From positions 18,186,001 to 18,250,000 of the forward strand of contig NC_091100.1 in assembly GCF_024713975.1 (NCBI RefSeq): DNA of 64,000 nt, in the 5' to 3' direction. The notes under the pieces are model-generated. The model was not told where the DNA came from, searched no databases, and saw only the letters and a program-made list of their open reading frames with translations. Shown piece after piece: positions 6,291-58,600 of the stretch. Position 1 is the first letter of the stretch. Each line of letters starts with the position of its first letter. The stretch comes from Paralichthys olivaceus. Its lineage: Eukaryota; Chordata; Actinopteri; Pleuronectiformes; Paralichthyidae. A program made the translations under genes and the position numbers.

Positions 6291-7102
6291 TTTATTGTCC
6301 CAATAATGAGGAAATACAGTATGTGCCCTGACGTGACAATGTCCCACACTGGTTTAACTGTAAATACACAGCACAGCAGATTTGACAAACCATCTTCAGA
6401 CTTTGCAAACAAAACAAACGATGGAGTGGCAACATTTCTCTGAAGAAAGACACTTGAATACATAATGTACAAACTTGAAAACAGTGAGGAATAAGAAAAG
6501 AATAACTTTCAACAACACAAGAAAACAACAATCTCAGATTTCACAAACATACGGTATCACAAGCAGCTATGTAGAAATAAAGGCTTTTTATTTTTTCTCC
6601 CTGTTGGAGGAGGGTGGAGAAAAGAAAAGAAAACCTCTGCACACATTCACACTTTGCAGACTGCAATGGCTTTAGAAAGTTGACTACATGCCTCTTGTGC
6701 TACACTTTTGTGTCTTACAAAAATACTCAACGCAAACACTTTCATTGTACAGAGAGTAGCAGAGAGTTATACAGTCATAGAAAAGTATTTGAATATTTAT
6801 TTATTTATTTTCTGTCATCTACATTTTCTGTCATAGTTTGGTAAAACCCCTCCCTATGACGCATACAGATAAAAACAAGCACTAACGAGTATCTTTAAAT
6901 ACTTTCTGACTTCAGATCCTTTTGGTGCTTTATATTTTTTCACATTTTCTACTCCCTTTCTTTCTCATTCTCTGCTCAGTCTCCCCACATCCAGTCCTGA
7001 ACATGACAACAGAGGAGATTACTTCAGGAAACCCTCTGGCTGCTGCTTCTGCTGCTGCCATCTGCCTCCTCTGTTCCTCCTCCTGCACCCTTCCCCTCCA
7101 TC
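6291..7102 (-). other. srl: srl 3' UTR with candidate poly(A) signals
   Basis: Downstream of the srl stop the minus strand carries overlapping AATAAA hexamers at 6796-6810, about 300 nt after the stop, and another at 6291-6296. No coding sequence lies between. Either may be the cleavage signal, so the true 3' end is uncertain. Confidence 0.5.
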
Positions 7103-22447
<15,345 letters not shown>

Positions 22448-26491: not shown

Positions 26492-29400
26492 GGTCTAACC
26501 TGCGGACTGTGTGTTTGCCTGTCGACAGCGTGGATCTGCTGCAGCCGTAACAGCGTCTGGCTCTGGAGGATCGCCTGCTCCTCCTCCACCTGCTGGGTGA
26601 TCACCTTCAGACGCTCTGGGTGCAGCTGGGTGTCCAGAGAGCGCACCTGTGCACACACACAAAATACACAGGTATGTTTGTTATATCAAACACCACTTCG
26701 CACACATCCAAGGCTTTTAAACTACTGAGCAAATATACATAAAAAACCGAGCAAATATAACAATCGGTTCAAGTGGTAGCACAATAATCTTGAGAACTGG
26801 TGTTACATATTAGGAATCTAAAAATGAATATGATCAATAATCACATTTACACACTTGGCTTTAGTCTGCCATTACTGTTTTCTGAACAGGTTTGATTTGC
26901 TGCATTTTTAAGCATGTGTAATGTAATGATACAAACTGGACCACTGACAACACACACAAATAGACTTGGATGCGTTCAAGATAATTTCTCAGCTCGTTGA
27001 TCAGAGGATAGAATTCTCTTTGTTCCCGACGGCTTCTCAGGATTGGATGGACCCAATGTTTTCAAAATCATCCTCACCGCTCGACTCTATTTCACAACTG
27101 CAAACTTTTGGAACAGTAATAATAAATGTTGCCTTCTTGTTATTAACTTACTTAAATACAATACTAAAATTGTTGTAACCCCCCTTTAAAAAGTTCCTGA
27201 GTTGTGAAAATTGGTTTTAATTGTGTTTCATTTCTCTACCCCTCATACAATAAGATAGACAAGCATTGAGTGCAAGTGTTAAAATATGAGACGCTTAACA
27301 CACACAGTGAAATCTTCTATTAATAAAAAATACAGAATTACTCCCCCTTCTTATTTTAGACTCATGAGAAATATCTCACTCCTGCATCTTTCCTTCTGTT
27401 TACATTCCTCTTTCACTTCCTGTTAAAGTTTCTGTTTGTCTTTACCAACTATTGAGTTGCCTCTATCATAACCTGCTGTTCAGGTAGATCCAGGATGTGA
27501 GCAGGATGCCAGGCATTGGCTGGAGGATGGTCAAATCTGTCATCACCAGCAGCTCCCACCATGTTGAAGTGGACTGGTGATCACATGGGGTAAAAATGGC
27601 TGCTATATCTGAAAAACTGGTTTGTATATGTTGACATCTAATACCCAGTGAGACCTCTAGATAAGATAAGTTTGTGACCTAAAGATGTGGACTTCATTTC
27701 CATCTCTGATACTTCCTCTTTCTATGTTTACCTATTAGGTTTTATTTCTAATTGAACTGAAACTTGAGCAATTGCCTGTTTTAAAATGTAAAAATTTGAT
27801 TTGGAATAGAAGCAGTGTTAAGTAGGAAGAGGATGTGTTATGGTTGTCTTAGATCATGATCCTCATCGTGTGGCCTTCAGCTTCAATTGACAATAGATAT
27901 AGAAACAAAGCATCACAAACCATAGACACGGATCAGATCGTGAAGTTAGTCTGAGAATGAAAAACTTACTGGCATTGTTAAATCTACTTCTTCTTTCACT
28001 ACTGAAATAAATGCTGAGAACCTTTTGATTTAGCTGAGTATAGAACTCAAACAGGACATGAGTCATAAAGTCTCACCTGCTCCTCCAGCTGCATTCGAGC
28101 CGAGCGCTCCTTGTCTAGTTGCTGTCGCAGCTCTAACATTTCCCTCCTCAACTCCTCGACCTTCTCCTCCTCCAGAGTGTCTGGAGAGCCGATCCCTTCA
28201 TCCTTCTCCTCCGCCCGCCTCCTCTTTGGTGACGAACCACTGAACTCCTGAAATAACAGAGACCACGTAGAGTTCAATTTAAAAGAGTCAACGTGCATAT
28301 TGCAACTTATGAACCACAACATGAATACATTTGAAAGAACAAAAATTCATTGTCAAAAAGGAAATCAGAAGCTAAAGTTTAGTTTCTGCAGTTTCAATGT
28401 GTCGTGCATGTGAACAAGGTAAACCTGCCAGTGGTGGTAATGTACAGTATATATGATCAGTCTGAAATGGGATAGGGCAACCTGGTTTTATCCGCATGGA
28501 GAGACACAAAGAAGGTAAAAAATATGGCACCAGCTATTACCTGGATGAAGCGCTTGAGCTGGTTGTTCTGTGCCAGGAGCTGTGTCTTCTCCTGCTCCAA
28601 GGTGAAGATGTAGTCTGATGTTTGCTGCAGGATGGCCGCCTGGCAGAAATGAAAAGAGCAGCACATGGACATTTAACCTTACAGACTCACAAAAGTGTTG
28701 CTGAAGCCGAGAGGAGACTACAATCATGACCAATGTGTCAAAAATGTAATTTCTCCCCCAACACCTGTACCCCAGCTTTTAAAGATTCATCATCCTGAGT
28801 TATAATCTACACCGTAACAAGTCAAGTGTTCACACCTTGCTGAGTTTCTCCCCATCTGTGTGGGGCAGGAGTGTTTTGAGGGACTGGAAGCCGGCATTGA
28901 TGCTTTGCATTCTCCGGCGTTCATTGCTGTTGGCGATCTCGCGGCGGATTCGTCTCTCCTGGTCCTGGGCCGTCTCCGGACTGAGCGGGATGTTGGCCAG
29001 GCTGAAGAAAAAGAAAGATGATCACTATTCAGTCCATAAAAGTGTTGTCCCCAATGAGGCTGTATAAGCTCCTTGTTTACATAATCGTGTCATAGATAAA
29101 TTGTGGAAATATCATCATTAAAATGTACATGTGGTACTGCATCAAAAAGAAGGTATTCAATGTTGATTTCAGTATTGATCAGACTGCTTTCAAAATTGTT
29201 TATATGATTTACTTACTTAGTTAATTACTTAAAGGTCCAGTGTGAAAGATTTAGGTGAAATGGCTCTATTGGCCTTTATATTCAAATACTTTATATTTAC
29301 ATGGAGGGGGTCCTCTCTACAGAGGATGCCATGTTTTTCACATTAGTCCAGACTGAACAAACTACACAACACCTTTTGAGTTTTTATGACAACTGAAGCC

Positions 29401-41587: not shown

Positions 41588-42505
41588 GGAGGCGGTCATT
41601 GCACTTGTTATAGGATTATGAATGAAACGATCTCTGGAACCACATTCTAATTGCCAGACAATTTGCACAACTGTGCACATTAAAAACCCCTAAAACGAGT
41701 CTTCATTTTTCAAAGGGTGTTTAGTGACTCCTTAAGAGCTGGTGTTAACTAACAGCTCTGTGTGAGTGTGCATGAAGGATACTTGTTCATTTGTGTGTGT
41801 ATTTATCTCATGATTCAGAATATAATATAGGAGATATAGTCCATTAGTAGGTCTTTAATCATATTGTTTCTGAAGCAGAACTCAAAAACCATTTGGATTT
41901 TTTTGTGACATTTCACAGTTTTGTTGATCTGGAAGTTTAGTAGTAGCTTTTGATATCGTAGGTTTATTTCTCTTTATTTTTATGCCTCAAAGCGAAAAGT
42001 CTGAGGGTCTGATTGATCAGCCGCTGTAAGGCTACGTTCATAGGTCAACACACACGCACGTAGCTAAATCATTTTCTTGGAAAGCAGAATGACAAAGTTA
42101 AATCCACATCCCTGTGTACTGTAGTTAATCACAAGTAAAATAAATGAAATCCTTAAGTCCAGCTTTGGCTCTTTTCAACAGAACATATCCTACAATGTCT
42201 GCACATGTAATGTCGGTGACATGAGCTATTTATTAGAATTGACTCACTTGACATCATTCAGGCCCAAAAGATAACTTTTGTGAGCAAGCAAATATTAACT
42301 AATTAAAAAAATAAGAAAAACAACATTGGAATGAAATGCTTCATAAGCGACTGAAGCTTACAGTGTTTGAATAGGAGAGGGGTAAATGGTAAGCCAGGGG
42401 TTAAAGGTTGAAAGTGATTGTATGAAAAAGAGACAGAGAAAGAGACGGAGAGACAGAGAGAGGGGATTAACTGTGGGGAGAAAGTGAGGTTGTTCTCTGT
42501 TCACC

Positions 42506-45500
42506 ATGGATTTATCACCTGGGGCTCTGATCCTCTGCTCACTGTTATGTTCAGGTACGAATCTGATTTGATTTAAAAACAGCAAAGAAACATCGACTGC
42601 AATATTGTGGATTTAGCAGGTTTGTCTTTCATTGTTGTAGCCTCTCTGTTGCGTGATGCCTGTAGAGATGTGCAGTGGATTCTTTTTGTACTTTAAAGGG
42701 TCGAACAGCAACTAAACCAATATGTGATATTAATCTGGATAATCCACAAATGTTGCTGTCAATAGATTTTATAAGAATCATTTTCTACTTAAAAAAGTCC
42801 TTTCTTTGTCTGTCTGTCTTTTTGTGGATTTAAGCAGAATCATTTCTGGAACGACTTTCTTTTATTTTATGGCTCCATAAGAAAGTTTGAAAACTCTGAT
42901 TCCCGACATATCAGTAGAATAATCTACACAGGGACAATTTTGTATACACTGACTATACTAACGTTAATGATGTTAATGATTATTCATAATACATACCACA
43001 CACGTGACACTTTCTGAAGAGAAATTTACAAATTTCATTTGTACTTTTCCTTTTTCCTTTGCCATCAAATAACTTCTGTTCAATCAGTGTATTTGCTCAG
43101 ACTGTTTGCTTTGGGTTGCTGTTTGTTTACACGCTTTTATCCCAGACCTGACTAAAGGTTCATAGAACATGTGTGTGCGTATGTGTGGTATCACCAGCTC
43201 TCCTCTCTCTGTGCAGTGGCTGGCCAGGCTCCTGTCGTCTCAGTGGAGCCCCGGGTTGCCACAGTGCGCCAGGGGGAGTCTGTCAGCTTTAGGTGCCAAG
43301 TTGGGAGCGGTGCACAGCCAGTCCAACTGGAGTGGAGGAGAGCCAATAACCAAGCATTGCCAGGTCAGGGGCAGTAATCAAATTTGAATGTTTATGTGAT
43401 AGGGTCCGATATAATAAATAGAGAAATGCACAGTAATAATCCAATGCAATGCATCACAGAATTTATAGCAACTGCTAAACCCTTGATGCCTGTAGAGGAG
43501 CCTTTAAAGACAACAAACAGAAAACATTAGAATTAGACCATAACATGAATTGCAGATGCAGCAGTACAACTGACCAGAGTACACATTTGCATACATATAC
43601 ACATGCAGCAGTACAACTGACCAGAGTACACATTTGCATACATATACACATGCAAATACATATCCACTCACAGAAACACATGTAAAGTACATACAAATGC
43701 ACATGGTGTCTACACAAATACACACACACCTTCCCCCAGTACCTATACATGTACTGCAAGATTGATTGGCTTATTTGAAATCCTTCTGCTCTAATTTAAA
43801 ATGTTGGAAGTACAAAGTAAAGTGATTTTTTTCCCTACAGACAATGCTAAGGTTGGTCCTGATTCCTCTGTGCTGACTATTGCTAACGCCCGAGCCGGAA
43901 ACCAGGGCCAGTACCGCTGTGTGGCAGCCAACTCTGCAGGCCGCGGCACCACCACAGCTGTGCTGAACGTCAAATGTAAGCCTGTCTTCACACTTTCTCC
44001 ACGACTGATTGTGTGTGAGCAACTCTGGGGCCCATGAATAGATATTGCATACTATACTATTATATATACTATCAAAAAGTTCAAAATAGATGGTATTATA
44101 TTTGACATTAATTATGCTGATGTTATGAAAGTAGAGCCGTGACTGAGGCAACATACAAAGTACTTTATGAAAATAGTGTGCAGTACCCATGTCTACAATG
44201 GGAAACTGATTAATTGATTTCAGATGAGAGTTTACTTTGGAGTGTTACTATCAATGCTGAAGCCCCAAACATAACACTTGTGTGTGAGTGCATCACATAT
44301 TATTTTGAAGTACTGCAGGTAGACACAGTTAGACTTCAATATTTAGCAACTAAAGACTCAGCTTCTTCCCCGAAGAGTTGGTTGAGACCAAAAAAGAGCT
44401 AAAAGAGAAGAAATACAGAACCAAAATTTGGCAAGTGACCTGAAAAGTGACCCCTAATGAATGATAATGTTGCTCCATAACTAGATGAGTATATGATAAT
44501 AAAAATAAAAACAATAATAATAACAGTTTCCCAACAATTTGCCATATAAACTTAAAAGATCATGATGTCTATTTAAAAATTGAAGGATGAATGTTATCGT
44601 ATCGCTGTGTCCTCTCTCTTTCTCAGATGCTCCTAAAGTGCGGCTGACACCCGCGGGGCCCCTGCATGTCAGGATTGGTGACCCTGTGTCAATTGGGTGT
44701 CGTGCCACAGGCAGACCACTCCCCAAGCTGAAGTGGATACGCCAAGGCTCCACTCTGCAGCTGGTTACCACGGAAACAAACGATGTCAACACCATACAGG
44801 TGAATTCCGAACATCTGCATAAGAATAACTTGAATTAATTTCCTCATTTTAGTTGAATAGATATAAAACAATACTTGCAATCTCATTCCTCAGTGGGCTG
44901 CGGTGCGTCCAGAGGACTCAGGAGTTTATATCTGCCAGGCTGAGAACAATGAAGGGGTGACAGAGGTCAAAGTTGAAGTCATTGTTGAGGGGGGGCCGGG
45001 AGCACCAGTGGCCACAGTGAGCACTAAAGAGATGACGGTGGTGGAGGGACATACAGTCACAATGGAGTGTCAGGCCAGTGGTAAGATGTTGTTGTGCTCA
45101 AATATATTTCAGTAACAGTTCTGCTCTCACTTCTCATTTCTCCCCTCACTTTTGTTTTCTCTTCCTCCTCCCAGGTTCCCCTCCTCCTATCATCACCTGG
45201 TCCAAGCTGCGAGCTCCGTTGCCATGGAAACACACAATGGTCGGTGGTGTTTTGACACTGACCAGTGTGGGGCGACAAGACTCAGGACAATACATCTGCA
45301 ACGCGACCAACATCCATGGCTACAGTGAGGCGTACACGCAGATGGAGGTGGACAGTGAGTGGAAGAAGCAGAGTATAACAGATAGTGTAGATCCACATTC
45401 TTTGTCCCTGCTCAGGTTAAGAAAAGGTGTCTTCTCCTTCACACAGCTCCTCCATATGCCACCTGCCTGCCCGACCAGGTGAGACTTCGGCCGGGGGACT

Positions 45501-45809
45501 CCCTGCGCCTGCAGTGCCTCGCCCACGGCTCTCACCCCATGCAGTTCGTGTGGAGCCGGGAGGGCCGGGCCAGCCTTCCCCCAGGAGCAGTAACCACAAA
45601 GGATGGAAAGCTGCTGGTGGCTCACGTTAAACTGAGCGACAGCGGAACATACAAATGTGGGGCAACCAACCACATCGGCTCCAGTGAAGCACTGGCCAGA
45701 GTCATCATAAAGCGTGAGCTAGCCTTTATGTTTGCTCAATTTAAAGACCGTTAAAATCGACTCTTTCTTTCCTTCATCTTGTCTCCTTTCTTTTTTTTTT
45801 ACAGCTTAA
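42506..45809 (+). CDS. Secreted four-Ig-domain protein resembling perlecan (HSPG2) domain IV
   Basis: Eight exons, plus strand: 42506-42554, 43217-43363, 43841-43975, 44627-44799, 44894-45080, 45175-45354, 45447-45713, 45805-45809. They join in frame to 380 residues ending VIIKP-stop. Exon 1 encodes a signal peptide (MDLSPGALILCSLLCSG). Four I-set Ig domains follow, each with its Cys pair: FRC/YRC, GC/YIC, EC/YIC and QC/YKC. Ig3 and Ig4 carry motifs close to perlecan domain IV, such as VEGHTVTMECQASG, GQYICNATN and LRLQCLAHG, and the linker TPPYAT resembles perlecan's APYAT. No transmembrane segment or GPI signal is seen, so it is probably extracellular. An extra Cys (C297) in Ig4 has no partner. 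N273 is a glycosylation sequon. A poly(A) signal lies at 46227-46232. The exact orthologue is unknown to me; it may be a lineage-specific duplicate of part of hspg2. Confidence 0.88.
43556..43649. repeat. 47-bp perfect tandem duplication
   Basis: Two identical 47-bp units (43556-43602 and 43603-43649) lie in intron 2 of the Ig gene, followed by a CA-rich stretch to about 43732. Confidence 0.9.
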
Positions 45810-46274
45810 TCCATTGTGGTCATATTGTCTGATTGACAATCCATCGATTCAATCCAATTTCTACAAGCCTGGATCCATTACTTTTTAAATGTTTTGAACA
45901 CAGAATCATATTTATCGATTCTCACACTTTGATGAATGAAGGTTAGACAGCAACACAGTTTAGATGTTTGGTATTATTGTGCATATGAGTTAATTTTATA
46001 CTTTTATAAAAAATGGATGCTGTTGCTGTTGCTGCTTCTGTCACATATCTGGCTTCAGAGAGCTTTTCTCTTCTGTGTGAAGTCTGTGCTGACGTCTGAC
46101 ATGCTGCAGTGTCTGTGGGAGGTTTTCTGCTGGAATGCTTCTACACCCTGTCCTTCATGGCATCTGCTGAGTTTACACTGTTGCACTGTTTGAAATGAGG
46201 CCACAAGACAAACAACAATCTGATATAATAAAAAAGAAAGTCTTTATTGTGACACCGAATGCTAAATCAATAAA
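45810..46274 (+). other. 3' UTR of the Ig gene with two poly(A) signals
   Basis: AATAAA occurs at 46227-46232 and 46269-46274 on the plus strand, about 420 and 460 nt after the stop codon. No further exon was found downstream. Confidence 0.65.
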
Positions 46275-46439
46275 GTTGGGAATAATTTATGAAATTGTTG
46301 TTTACAGTGTATACATGATAGGGACTGTAGATAAAAGGTATTAACAGAGGGAGGGGTGTCAGAGACCTGTAAGTTTGCTAAATGATGCTAAAAGTCTTCC
46401 CTCGCAGTTAAGTTAATAATTATTATGTTTTCATTAGAG

Positions 46440-46770
46440 TGTGTTTGCTTGTCAGATTGCAGGATTACACAATAACTACTGAACGGATCACGACCAAAAC
46501 TCAGGAAAGAACCCAATAAATTTTGATGTGGATCTGGATTAGGGGGCGGATCCAGCAATTATTCTTTTTCACTTTATTCAACATTTTTTTGGGCATTTTT
46601 CAACATTTCTTTTGTTTTCTTAGAGAATCATTCACTTATCTTGATGAAATCTGGATCTGGCATATTTAGGGGACTGATTTATGAGTTTGTGCAATTTGGT
46701 GCAGATATCTGAATAAAAATCCATATCTAGTGAATTTGAATGAGGTTTCATAATACTATTGGGCTCTTCT
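46440..46770 (+). repeat. Dispersed repeat family C, fullest copy
   Basis: Contains 'aggattacacaataactact', 'gatctggattagggggcgga', 'ttttcactttattcaaca' and 'tgcaatttggtgcagat', linking all other copies in the window. Confidence 0.65.
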
Positions 46771-49303
46771 GAGTGCTATTCTAGTTACATAAATAGTTTC
46801 ATCAAAATGATTGCATTACAAGGTACAATGTGAATGAACATCACTCGAAGCAAAACAAACTTCACTGTCACCAATCAGGTTTAACATGTAAATAAAAAAA
46901 TGATTTACATTCGACTTTCAGGCACTTGTGTTGTCTCCAAGCCAGAAAAAGAGCAATCTGAGCTCTCACACCCTTAATAAGCCGAGGGACAGATGCAGTG
47001 CACAGTCAAACAAGCTATTGTTTTCCAAATGCCTCCATGTAGTCCATAAACAGAATAAAAGCATCTGTCCGATCACTGCAGCTCTCTGTGTAAATATGGA
47101 CTGTAAACTCCTGCTGAACAGGCAAAGTTCAGTTTGATCACACAGACGTGTTGCAAGATGAAGCACCGATGGTTATGCTGGTTGCATGAAATCTAAAACA
47201 GCTCTGCCTATATGAGGTGCTAGCTCGACATTTAGGTTTTATGGCTACAGCAGGGGGTTTGAAAGAGAACGACCATTTCCACGAGCTGCTGCCAGGACCC
47301 AGGGGTGACTCAGGCCTCCTTTGTAAAAACCTCCCAACCTCCATGGAGTTACAGGCCTCAGCCTTTCCACTGTTCCTCTCTATCTTTACAACATCTTCAG
47401 GTCGGGGAGGAAACATCTATCGTATGTCACCTCGCTTCACCCCCTCACTTCTTAGAGCCACTGAGGAATGGGGAGTTGATGGAAACAAAACACAGCAGAG
47501 TTAACTCTAGACCACACTTTGCTTATGTTGGCCTTAAGAGGTGGGGACAGGCAGAGATAACAGATGGTGTGTCATGGCCGTATCAGTCAAAGAGAGAAAA
47601 CAAAGTCCCACATATTCATTTTTCTTCACATTCTATTACAGTAATAATAATGACAAACTTTTACTGCATTGGAAAAATACTAAGCATGCCGTACCTGCTG
47701 CAACAAAAACCACGTCACCCCAATGAGGTTAGAGCGTCCTGTGGAAATGGTGTGATGGGAGGCTGTGGTTTTCACTTGGTGAACCCAGATACCTTGCAGC
47801 TTTGCAGCAGTGTTTTTTTTTTTGTATCCACATATTCTGCATAAGATATAAAGGCAGACCGATGCGATGATATGGAGAGCATATCGCACTTTGCTTTATA
47901 TCTAAACTCACGTTGTCTCTTTAAAAATAGTGTTTAACTGTTACATTTTTGTCTTTCACAGACTGAGGAAGTTGTCTGTGAAAGTGGGGCTTGACTGCTG
48001 ACAGGAAGGAGACATTCTCTTGGCCAAATAGGTCACTAAGGATGGAAAAATAGGCTGCATGACACAGAGGAGCGATTTTCATAGCCTTCTCCCTTATATG
48101 GAAGAAAAAAGAAACATATAAAGGTCTTTGAAACACAACCTTTACATATCTACAGCCAGGAAATCAGTGCTAATCCCAGTCATGAGGTTGTGACCCTTCA
48201 GGCTGTCCTTGCTTTGAACACTGTATGGGATGAGAAGGGAAAAATATAAACTTCTTGGCTTATCTCACTATTCTTCTCTTGTGAAATACACAATACTTCC
48301 ATTTTCAAGCTGAGAGACAAAATTCCTCACTTTGTGGAAGTTTTACACTTTAATTTCATTCAACTTTAAAAACTGCCAAGAGATTTAAAGTTAACAATAG
48401 TTTATTTCACACAAGCCAAAAAGGTTGTAGGCCACTGCACTTAAGAGTTGTTAACTTTCAATATTGAATTCTGCATTTTGGTTTATAAGCTTTGATGGTT
48501 GTGAAAGGCTGGTTAACACCTGCACGCACATGCAAACACACACAGACACACACACATATGTTAGTTTGACACTTTACACAGAGCTTGCACTGTGAACATC
48601 TTTATTTTTCTGTTGTTTCCATTCTCGACAACTTGTGGTCCCCTTTTACACCGTTCATCACAGAGACATCAGCTCTGAAACAGAGAAACAATGCAAGATA
48701 TGTTTTAATTTTCTTTACGGTCAAGCAATTCAGAGAACCAATCATGACAAGGTCTCAGGATATTCCAAACAAATCAAATTCGTAAATGATTCATCATCTA
48801 TAAATAACAGAACTTGATTTGGGTGACTCAATATATTGAATTCTCACTTTCACCATCCTTGGTAAAACTGGGAAAATCGGAGAAACCTGTGTGAGTGGGG
48901 TCATCACAATAACTGAGTAAACTAATCTTTGTGTCCCTGATATGTTAATTATGATCTGTTTCTCTGATTTTATTTGTCTTACAGACTTTAAAATAGCACA
49001 TTAAAACACTGCCAGCTTAATGCCGCTGCAAAGAGGCTGCTGCTTGTTGCAGGGTGGTGTCAATACAGCCTACATAGGCTTCAAGCTTTTTTTCATTTTG
49101 ACATTATGTCACTTGTGACTTGTGACACAAGAAAACAGCTGCTTGAGGTCGGGGGAAAAAAACATCTGACTAAAAATAGCAGACTGATCGAAAGCCAAAG
49201 GTACAACATGTACAGCATGTTGCTTCACATCCTTTGTTTTTTCAACCGAACATTTACAGAAGGGCTTTACAAAAATGAAAAGTATATTGTAAAGAACTGT
49301 GTT

Positions 49304-55638: not shown

Positions 55639-58600
55639 AAGGTTTCGTGAAATGTACATGGAAGTTTAGACATTGTGTTAGACTTCAGTTAATTTACTTC
55701 CCCTTATTTCTTCAGCAGACATAGTATATCCCATTAGAAGAGCCTCCAAGTTCTTGGTTTGAACCCTGGTTCTGTTGTTGGCATGTTCTCCTTGTGTCTT
55801 TGTGGTTCATCTCCTGCTTCTTCTCACAGTACAAAGTCACGTAGATACAGTAGGTGTTAGGTGCATTGGAGACTCTAGATTGACCAAATGGGTGAATGGT
55901 TGTTCCTCTTTATATTCAGACCTACCTCTCTAGCTGCATCCCCTCCACTGCCCTTAAAGTGATAAATAGATAATGGATGGATGGATAAAAAAGCTGACTG
56001 TTGTTCACCTGGGCAGCATCAGTGATGTTAACCCTGTCAGGCACTGAGCGCTGTGCAGCCGTGTTAACAGTGGTGAAGTGTGGATGGAGGTCAGGGTGGC
56101 TGCTGTGTTGTAAAAACCTCTGTCACTGCACTGATGCTGCACTGAACATGTCAGTCAGAATCAACAAGGCCTGATGGCAGCCGCAGAGTCACCACAGGAA
56201 GAATACATGAGCCTTTTCTAAACAAACCACAAACCTGATTGGAAGAATTATACACTTGGCAGATTTGTGAATAAGTTAAGGTGGTTACATCAGTATAGGC
56301 TGCCATAGATGATTTAGTATATAGAAATGTTATTAAATTATGTTATTATATAGAGAGATATATGTTGATTGTTATATTAAAACACACAGTACTAGGACCA
56401 AAGTTCATGCTATTTATCAAATACACACCATTACCATGTTTCACAATGTTTAAAATATTATACAGACCGTAGCCTTTATGTATTATGATAGTTGATATAT
56501 GTGTGCAAATTGTGATGTAAAACAAAATGCTTAATACAAAGTAATAATCTTTATTTATAAGTGTATTTTATCTTCAAGCCACAGTTTGATTTCACAGCTA
56601 AAGCATAATTTTTGGGTCACACTGTTTAGTTCATGTTTGTAGCAACACTGCTAGATGTGTAAATCGAAACTGGTTGCCACAGTATTAGATAATATATTAT
56701 TAGATTTGAACTCTTTGGCTTTGGCATATACTGTATAGGAAACCTAGTATGCAATTACAACACAAGATACTGTGTAGATAATCAATTACCAAAGGTCAAA
56801 AGTCAATTATAGCACAAAAATATTTCAGCATGACAATATTACATAAGTTTTTAATCCAAAGATTTTGTTTAGCTGCTTTTTTCAATAAATCTATATTGAA
56901 GCAAAGAAAAAACACAAAACGAAAAAAGAATAGGTTATAATTATGATCAATAAAAAATAAATCCAACAAAAGAGGAATTATTGTTTCTCAGAACCGTTTT
57001 TTTAAAGCTTTACAGAAACACAAATTACCCTAATTTCTGAAATGAGTATTAATAATAATTATAATAATTATAGTTAAAATCATTACAATAATGAAATAGT
57101 TGAAATAGCACCGCACTTCATTACAAAACATAGAAGACAACTAGAATAATCATAATTCAAAAACTTATTTAAATGATTAAATAATAATAAAAGATTCAAA
57201 ATCGGAGACAGCTAATTATATAGTCTAATATAAAATCTAAAAAATCAAAGTCAAGAAATAAAATGATAAAAAGAACAGGCTAAAAGAAACATTATAATAG
57301 ATAAAAACAAGCATGTTAAAGCCTGGTCCTCTTTGGTCAGTCTTGACCGAGGAATATCTATCATGGCCTCATCATTATACAGTATATTGGGGAGGAATGA
57401 TTTAGAAGCTCAGTGAAGTAGCTTGGTGCCATGAAGGTCAACAGCAATATTTAAAATCCATTCTTGAACACACAGGCAGCCAGTGAAGGGAAGCTGATAT
57501 ATGGGAGATGCGATCTTGCGTACATGATTTGGTCAAGAGTCTGGCAGCTGCCTCTTGAACACCCTGAGAGTGAGCGATCATGTTTTGGTTCTGGCCTGTA
57601 AACACAGCTTCACAAAAATCCAGCTGAGACGTAATAAAACATGAATCACTTTGTGGAGAGCACAGAGGAAGAAGCTGCGCACCTCCACTTTCTCTCAGGC
57701 CCAAATGTAAAGCAACAGCAAGAGAGAGAGAGACAGAGAGAAGTGCAGCTTACACAGAGACAGAGGAGACGGATTCTGTGAGAGACAATCTATTCTTACT
57801 GATGAATGAAACTCAGTGTCACATGAAGTCAGGCCTTGTGTCTGTTTGCAGTTGTGTGGTGATAAAGTTAGAATCAATCCCACTGTTTTACTCAGTTAGA
57901 CACACTCTGTCTGGTTTTGGTAAAGTGGTGTTACTGTTAGAGCTCCGGCCTCATCACACAACAACAACAGAGGGCTTATTGTGTTCTATCCCAGGGAAGG
58001 GAGCTGGATGTATTTTCTGACTTACACCATATGTAGCAGGATCTGTGCTCTGCTGCACCAGTGACTCCTGAGTCAAAGAAATGTGACATGTGTCTGCAGT
58101 GGTGTGGAGACAATCTATTATACAGGGAGTCATGGGTGGAACTTAGCAGGAGGAGGGAGTCACATTATTTACATAATAAGCATACAGTGTACAAACCCTC
58201 AATTTCAAGCATAAAGAGAGAGATACACTGTCAGTCATGTTCCGATGAACACAGCACAGACACACAAACACGTGCATTCGGCTAATATTAGAATAAAATC
58301 CAATTTCTCGGTGTGGGGGGGGGGGCTAAAATCTGATTGGCCCCTGAAATGCCCCTGTCCTGTCTGTAGTTTTAAATAAAGTACTCACTTACTTACAAAT
58401 AGTAATAATAAATATGACATTTTGTTAAAGATTTTCATTTTCTAAGCTTTTTTGATGCAATCTTCTTGACCAAGGAAAGATTTATTCATCAGCTAAAAGT
58501 AAACAAGAAATGACTTAAATGTGCACCTTAAAGAAATTTTGCATGGATGTTGGATATGTAATTGGTCCCTCTGTGTAAATTAAGGACCCTTCATGGCGCC

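Follow-up and report, generated by a model that had tools for sequence, protein, structure and literature searches.

The window, a 64-kb stretch of DNA corresponding to positions 18186001–18250000 of contig C8, carries on its forward strand (42506–45809) an eight-exon gene with a coding sum of 380 amino acids. Judged by its sequence, this gene is almost certainly paralogous to an internal part of hspg2, the perlecan gene, and originated as a partial duplicate in which the introns were retained. The best explanation of the data as a whole, which we regard as probable, is that a duplicate of hspg2 Ig16–19 gave rise to a secreted matrix ligand resembling perlecan Domain IV-3. Repeat numbers follow a working sequence of human HSPG2.

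Gene organization

All seven introns are of the GT-AG type, with phases 1, 1, 1, 0, 1, 1 and 1 (Table 1). The start codon at 42506 is found in a good context (CTGTTCACCATGG), 21 bases downstream of an in-frame TGA at 42485, and the GC content at the three codon positions (0.61, 0.51 and 0.61) compares with 0.356 in the introns. An initial annotation of this DNA had described a complete gene of 380 residues with its own start, four Ig domains, stop and poly(A) signals, and splicing, phases, Pfam matches and AATAAA motifs all agree with it. The signal peptide proposed there is likely, as indicated by hydropathy only: a lone N-terminal hydrophobic segment reaches a 19-residue mean of at most 1.96, and past residue 40 the mean does not exceed 0.87. 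Intron 2 contains a 47-base unit in two head-to-tail copies at 43559 and 43606 (span 43559–43652).

Table 1 Features of the window and of the hspg2 locus on contig C6 (window positions unless a contig is given)
Feature	Position	Strand	Content or evidence
Exon 1	42506–42554	+	Start codon and likely signal peptide MDLSPGALILCSLLCS; phase 1 at end
Exon 2	43217–43363	+	Ig A, first half; corresponds to first exon of hspg2 Ig16 (C6:24579647–24579790)
Exon 3	43841–43975	+	Ig A, second half; corresponds to second exon of hspg2 Ig16; 135 bases each
Exon 4	44627–44799	+	Ig B, first part; corresponds to first exon of hspg2 Ig17; ends at the common phase-0 intron
Exon 5	44894–45080	+	End of Ig B and start of Ig C fused, as in hspg2 Ig17/Ig18
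Exon 6	45175–45354	+	Ig C, second half, with WSKLR.PLPW motif; corresponds to second exon of hspg2 Ig18; 180 bases each
Exon 7	45447–45713	+	Whole Ig D in a single exon; corresponds to hspg2 Ig19 exon; phase 1 at end
Exon 8, coding end	45805–45809	+	One Pro codon completed, then TAA stop; acceptor CCTTTCTTTTTTTTTTACAG
AATAAA, first two of five up to 47000	46227, 46269 (46227–46274)	+	Sequence scan of 45801–47000
EHD/sarcalumenin-like GTPase	7024–16000, around 7–9 kb	−	8126–8593 matches EHD4, E=2.6e-30
bHLH-zipper reading	~28.5–29.1 kb	−	Reading frames
MVB12 gene, two pieces	36–38 kb	−	DUF2464, E=1.6e-7 (above cut-off) and 0.0021 (below)
Adhesion receptor, EGF_CA and GPS exons	From 59.3 kb	+	Pfam; best GPS matches ADGRD1 and ADGRE5
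Full hspg2 (as taken here)	C6:24567875 to ~24612000	−	Genome search, Pfam, working human HSPG2 sequence

The terminal exon adds a single codon, so a different 3' end would be easy to accommodate, and the phase at the end of exon 7 is 1, as is usual where modules are added; both points would fit a longer gene in which exon 7 is joined to distant exons encoding a membrane anchor or extra domains. However, a long polypyrimidine tract precedes exon 8 and AATAAA follows 0.4 kb beyond it, unspliced read-through past exon 7 meets a stop within 15 codons, and the EGF exon located downstream sits together with the GPS exon of an adhesion receptor. Furthermore, when a profile of the four Ig domains was compared with the 1647 open reading frames of at least 25 residues in the 64-kb window, the six Ig-bearing frames were the exons of this gene. 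The next three matches were weak (E=0.01 on the antisense of exon 2, and 0.23 and 0.69 in isolated frames), and no further Ig exon, downstream or elsewhere in the window, was found by this profile. We therefore consider a longer gene improbable.

Genomic surroundings

The EHD/sarcalumenin-like gene, two pieces of which gave no Pfam match, is presumably sarcalumenin (SRL), and a very Glu-rich reading frame (15058–15987) occurs in the same gene region. The bHLH-zipper reading we take to be TFAP4; the 28047–28346 piece gave no Pfam match. The SRL–TFAP4 pair is, we assume, also linked on human 16p13.3. On the other side of the gene, the EGF_CA and GPS exons of the adhesion receptor are consistent with the adgre5 neighbor named in the initial annotation. 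Six of the ten flanking reading frames submitted to Pfam had no match. A reading frame at 57438–57749 on the reverse strand looks by eye like part of a LINE-type reverse transcriptase, also with no Pfam match.

Predicted protein

The product is predicted to be a secreted, basic matrix protein (pI ~9) of ~361 residues composed of four tandem Ig domains. Pfam assigns four Ig stretches to the 380-residue protein (Ig_3, E=2.1e-63; I-set, E=2.7e-61), and the families matched are nine Ig families and the Ig-like Izumo-Ig entry, with nothing else. Each domain has the Cys-Trp-Y.C core of the I-set, for which Pfam scores above cut-off, and all eight canonical cysteines are intact (43/92, 135/182, 227/272 and 314/361). 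Cys297 in Ig D is an extra cysteine outside the canonical pair, and it is a matter of speculation that it could link dimers. A sequence scan shows five Ser-Gly dipeptides, the feature considered for heparan sulfate attachment, and one N-glycosylation sequon at Asn273 in Ig18, which matches the position of a sequon in the working human HSPG2 sequence and is missing in the hspg2 of contig C6. Exon 7 alone, modeled with AlphaFold2 from a single sequence, gave a mean pLDDT of 55.7, and this model was set aside.

The full hspg2 gene on contig C6

A search of the 588-Mb, 25-contig assembly with the 380-residue protein returned 95 matches from the best 108 of 489 candidates. Among these best 108, identities above 50% were obtained, besides the exons in the window, only at C6:24577488–24579809 (minus strand), where the pieces follow the order of the query from 24579809 down to 24577488 with 58, 35, 58, 55 and 38% identity; matches on other contigs, among the same best 108, had ~25–44% identity. 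Within 100 kb around this locus, the working human HSPG2 sequence aligns collinearly, though not without gaps, over the Ig region, the LG/EGF modules and on to the last exon. Four of eight pieces of the locus were matched by Pfam; along one strand they read LDLR-A, laminin-EGF, Ig and laminin-G, the laminin-EGF piece with 21.5 bits, barely above the cut-off of 21. No Pfam match was obtained for the other four, chosen as candidates for SEA, for laminin-IV (two) and for the last exon. We take the C6 locus to be the full perlecan gene of this fish, and since full hspg2 is present there, the gene in the window is an additional copy of one part of it.

The working human HSPG2 sequence was set down independently of the C6 locus, and its match to that locus supports it. 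Of 17 peptides from this sequence, three occur in published articles, whose available text assigns them to P98160 or perlecan: SPVISIDPPSSTVQQGQDASFK in PMC10429090, IAHVELADAGQYR in PMC4148700 and TWSKVGGHLRPGIVQSG in PMC5442728. No human HSPG2 splice variants were found in print at the predicted intron positions.

Exon-by-exon comparison with hspg2

Exons 2–7 measure 147, 135, 173, 187, 180 and 267 bases in the window gene and 144, 135, 182, 196, 180 and 261 bases in the hspg2 of C6. All five internal introns fall on aligned residues in the same phase, the two genes have in common an unusual phase-0 intron inside Ig17 and the lack of an intron at the Ig17/Ig18 boundary, and the phases at which the block is entered and left are identical. 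Over the block, 182 of 358 residues (51%) are identical between the two fish sequences, compared with 154 of 356–357 between the window gene and the working human HSPG2 sequence, and 173 of 362 between fish hspg2 and that human sequence. The last value, which refers to the Ig16–19 block, differs from the analysis of domain IV in a review, according to the available text of which zebrafish perlecan is less than 20% identical to human perlecan (PMC6266596). When 554 reading frames from the hspg2 strand of C6 were compared with those of the window, each of the six exons was best matched by the corresponding hspg2 exon; all matches with E<=1e-3 lay inside the gene, and no other hspg2 exon was found in the 64-kb window.

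The window gene shows two of the features that mark an hspg2 paralogue, namely collinear best matches to consecutive repeats and common intron positions and phases. The coincidence of exons, introns and phases points to a partial duplication, introns included, to which a signal exon and a stop exon became attached. This upholds the initial annotation, which had proposed that part of hspg2 domain IV was duplicated and acquired a signal exon; its alternative, an independent small protein, is not needed given the match to the hspg2 of C6. An origin by retro-copying was excluded because the introns are retained.

Assignment to Ig16–19

Among 13 human repeats of the working sequence, the best matches of Ig A–D are, collinearly, Ig16, Ig17, Ig18 and Ig19, with scores of 213, 147, 237 and 199 against 103, 121, 149 and 123 for the respective runners-up; divergence is greatest in domain B (147 versus 121 for the next repeat). 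With 12 of the 13 human repeats, an unnumbered early one being dropped, the assignment to Ig16–19 ranks first of 11880 with 796, followed by 751, and the next consecutive block reaches 423.

In a tree of single domains, the first three window domains pair with human Ig16 (100/99), Ig17 (86/82) and Ig18 (80/75), and the fourth is placed in an open fork with human Ig19 and the Ig16 pair. With fish hspg2 added, groups are formed for Ig16 (92/99) and Ig18 (87/94), and none for Ig17 and Ig19; in the Ig16 tree, the window copy falls outside fish plus human (94/54). In a three-way comparison of 354 columns, 119 are alike in all three sequences and 91 differ in all, 59 are identical in the window gene and fish hspg2 only, 53 in fish hspg2 and human only, and 32 in the window gene and human only. 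By the column counts and the Ig16 branching order, the copy may have arisen within fishes or earlier.

Other Ig proteins as relatives

PDB searches returned generic I-set proteins among the matches listed (the best 60 of 260, 60 of 200, 60 of 99 and 42 of 42), with DSCAM on top at 157 bits and titin, contactin-2 and ROBO among the others. The best solved structures among those listed are hence of the kind that would be expected if the gene were an unrelated I-set gene of DSCAM, contactin, ROBO or titin type resembling perlecan by chance, and two multi-Ig single-exon loci in the same genome point the same way: C9:7261012–7261947 covers residues 84–371 in one piece with 92 bits and 30% identity, which is more than any single exon of the C6 locus scores in the own-genome search, and C11:17701502–17702293 gives 74 bits at 30% identity. 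However, such proteins share the Ig fold at ~25–44% identity, whereas hspg2 is matched in domain order, in intron positions and phases and in the WSKLR.PLPW motif; furthermore, the window protein scores 318 bits against Ig16–19 of the working human HSPG2 sequence (phmmer), and the best PDB chain reaches 157 bits. The probability of a chance resemblance is accordingly negligible. Pattern searches of viral and prokaryotic contig collections gave 2 and 16 matches, none of which was confirmed.

Dense groups of Ig_3 matches are located at C8:1.38–2.31 Mb and C10:0.17–0.62 Mb. On C8, which also carries the window gene, the scores of many of these matches are almost the same, suggesting a recently expanded Ig family; the C10 group includes single reading frames of several thousand residues that are titin-like.

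Origin and age of the copy

The copy almost certainly arose by duplication of a genomic segment carrying the exons of Ig16–19 with their introns. This segment starts and ends in phase 1 and so fits between a signal exon and a terminal exon; symmetric phase 1-1 modules are a classic route to new secreted proteins. With a signal-peptide exon ending in phase 1 ahead of it and a short terminal exon behind, the spliced block could yield a complete secreted protein. The reading frame of the copy has stayed open, with dN well below dS.

Between the window gene and the hspg2 of C6, the NG86 method gives dN 0.44 and dS 1.36, and LWL85 gives dN 0.46 and dS 1.37. The resulting dN/dS of ~0.32, a rough value with dS near saturation and both branches mixed, speaks for net purifying selection, and the age of the copy can be read only roughly from a dS so close to saturation. 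Such a copy is old, as might be expected of a decaying duplicate devoid of function; on the other hand, its frames, splice sites, eight canonical Ig cysteines and signal exon are all intact and dN is one third of dS, which makes decay very improbable. It is probable that the product is under selection and secreted.

The dS of ~1.36 is also old enough for a different origin, in which a second, complete hspg2 produced by the teleost genome duplication, or by an earlier one, was reduced to four Ig repeats, and only one other hspg2 locus was found among the best 108 of the 489 genome candidates. A remnant of this kind, however, leaves unexplained why no trace of the other hspg2 exons is found in the 64-kb window and why the neighbors (the sarcalumenin-like and tfap4-like genes, MVB12 and the EGF/GPS adhesion receptor) are not those expected around HSPG2, and we regard it as unlikely. 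The partial, intron-retaining duplication of Ig16–19 is the origin that we prefer.

Possible function and known systems

Counted back from the last repeat, the window block presumably corresponds to repeats one to four of the seven that make up perlecan Domain IV-3. One of the best conserved stretches, [IT]I[TH]WSKLR[AS]PLPW[KRQ]H in Ig C, sits, as we take it, at the place where Ig21 carries the cell-adhesion peptide TWSKVGGHLRPGIVQSG, a peptide that presumably lies outside the block. According to the available text of PMC5940808, Domain IV-3 consists of the last seven Ig repeats of human perlecan domain IV and on its own clusters prostate cancer cells, lowers FAK phosphorylation and binds Sema3A, effects that are reversed by MMP-7 cleavage. 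The clustering by full perlecan is also reversed by digestion of its sugar chains (PMC5940808), so that a piece without chains need not behave alike.

Since the block is part of Domain IV-3 and its Ig C stretch is conserved, we infer a small secreted ligand with partial Domain IV-3 activity. For the predicted product such activity is a tentative proposal, with a chance somewhat below even, by analogy with a domain that was assayed as the full set of seven human repeats in prostate cancer cells (PMC5940808). The product would then act like the first half of Domain IV-3: at basement membranes it would bind partners of Sema3 type or on the cell surface and shift the balance from substrate adhesion toward cell–cell cohesion, as a companion or a competitor of perlecan. 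A soluble mimic that competes with perlecan is plausible in view of the block representing the first four repeats of the bioactive Domain IV-3.

Compared with HSPG2, with which it shares the same four repeats, their order, exon boundaries and phases, the window gene is predicted to lack domain I as well as the LDLR, laminin-type and LG modules and the other Ig repeats, and the LDLR-A, laminin-type and LG/EGF modules that surround the long Ig array of a perlecan orthologue are not part of it. It has a signal exon, a stop and poly(A) signals of its own, and it is located on C8 and hspg2 on C6. With respect to Domain IV-3 (PMC5940808, as far as the available text goes), it represents the first four repeats in free-standing form and without the last three, as a gene of its own. 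Separate genes, each with its own transcription, carry parts of perlecan in Trichoplax, where perl1 and perl2 are 13 kb apart and, according to the available text of PMC4398486, jointly make up one perlecan, whereas the present fish also has a full hspg2. In Atlantic salmon, the automatically named gene 106577870, 'basement membrane-specific heparan sulfate proteoglycan core protein-like', appears in the available text of a post-vaccination transcriptome study (PMC6668776) by name only, without sequence; we make no claim of orthology. We suspect that automatic annotation already gives the window gene this same name in fish databases. Among the open-access articles listed in literature searches, titles and abstract openings contain no description of a stand-alone four-Ig paralogue of perlecan.

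Perlecan is usually viewed as one giant gene whose bioactive pieces are released by proteolysis. In a bolder reading, to which we give only a small chance, the bioactive end of the perlecan Ig array would have become, in a fish lineage, an independent and separately regulated secreted signal that is free of the other perlecan modules and equivalent to a genetically encoded half of Domain IV-3. It is similarly unlikely, but conceivable as part of the same reading, that this signal forms a disulfide dimer, perhaps through Cys297, and competes with or modulates perlecan–semaphorin signaling at tissue borders or in immune cells. A separate gene for such a piece would mean that the function of Ig16–19 could be removed or overexpressed with full-length perlecan left untouched, and the locus clearly exemplifies a multi-domain exon block, symmetric in phase (1-1), giving rise to a new secreted gene.
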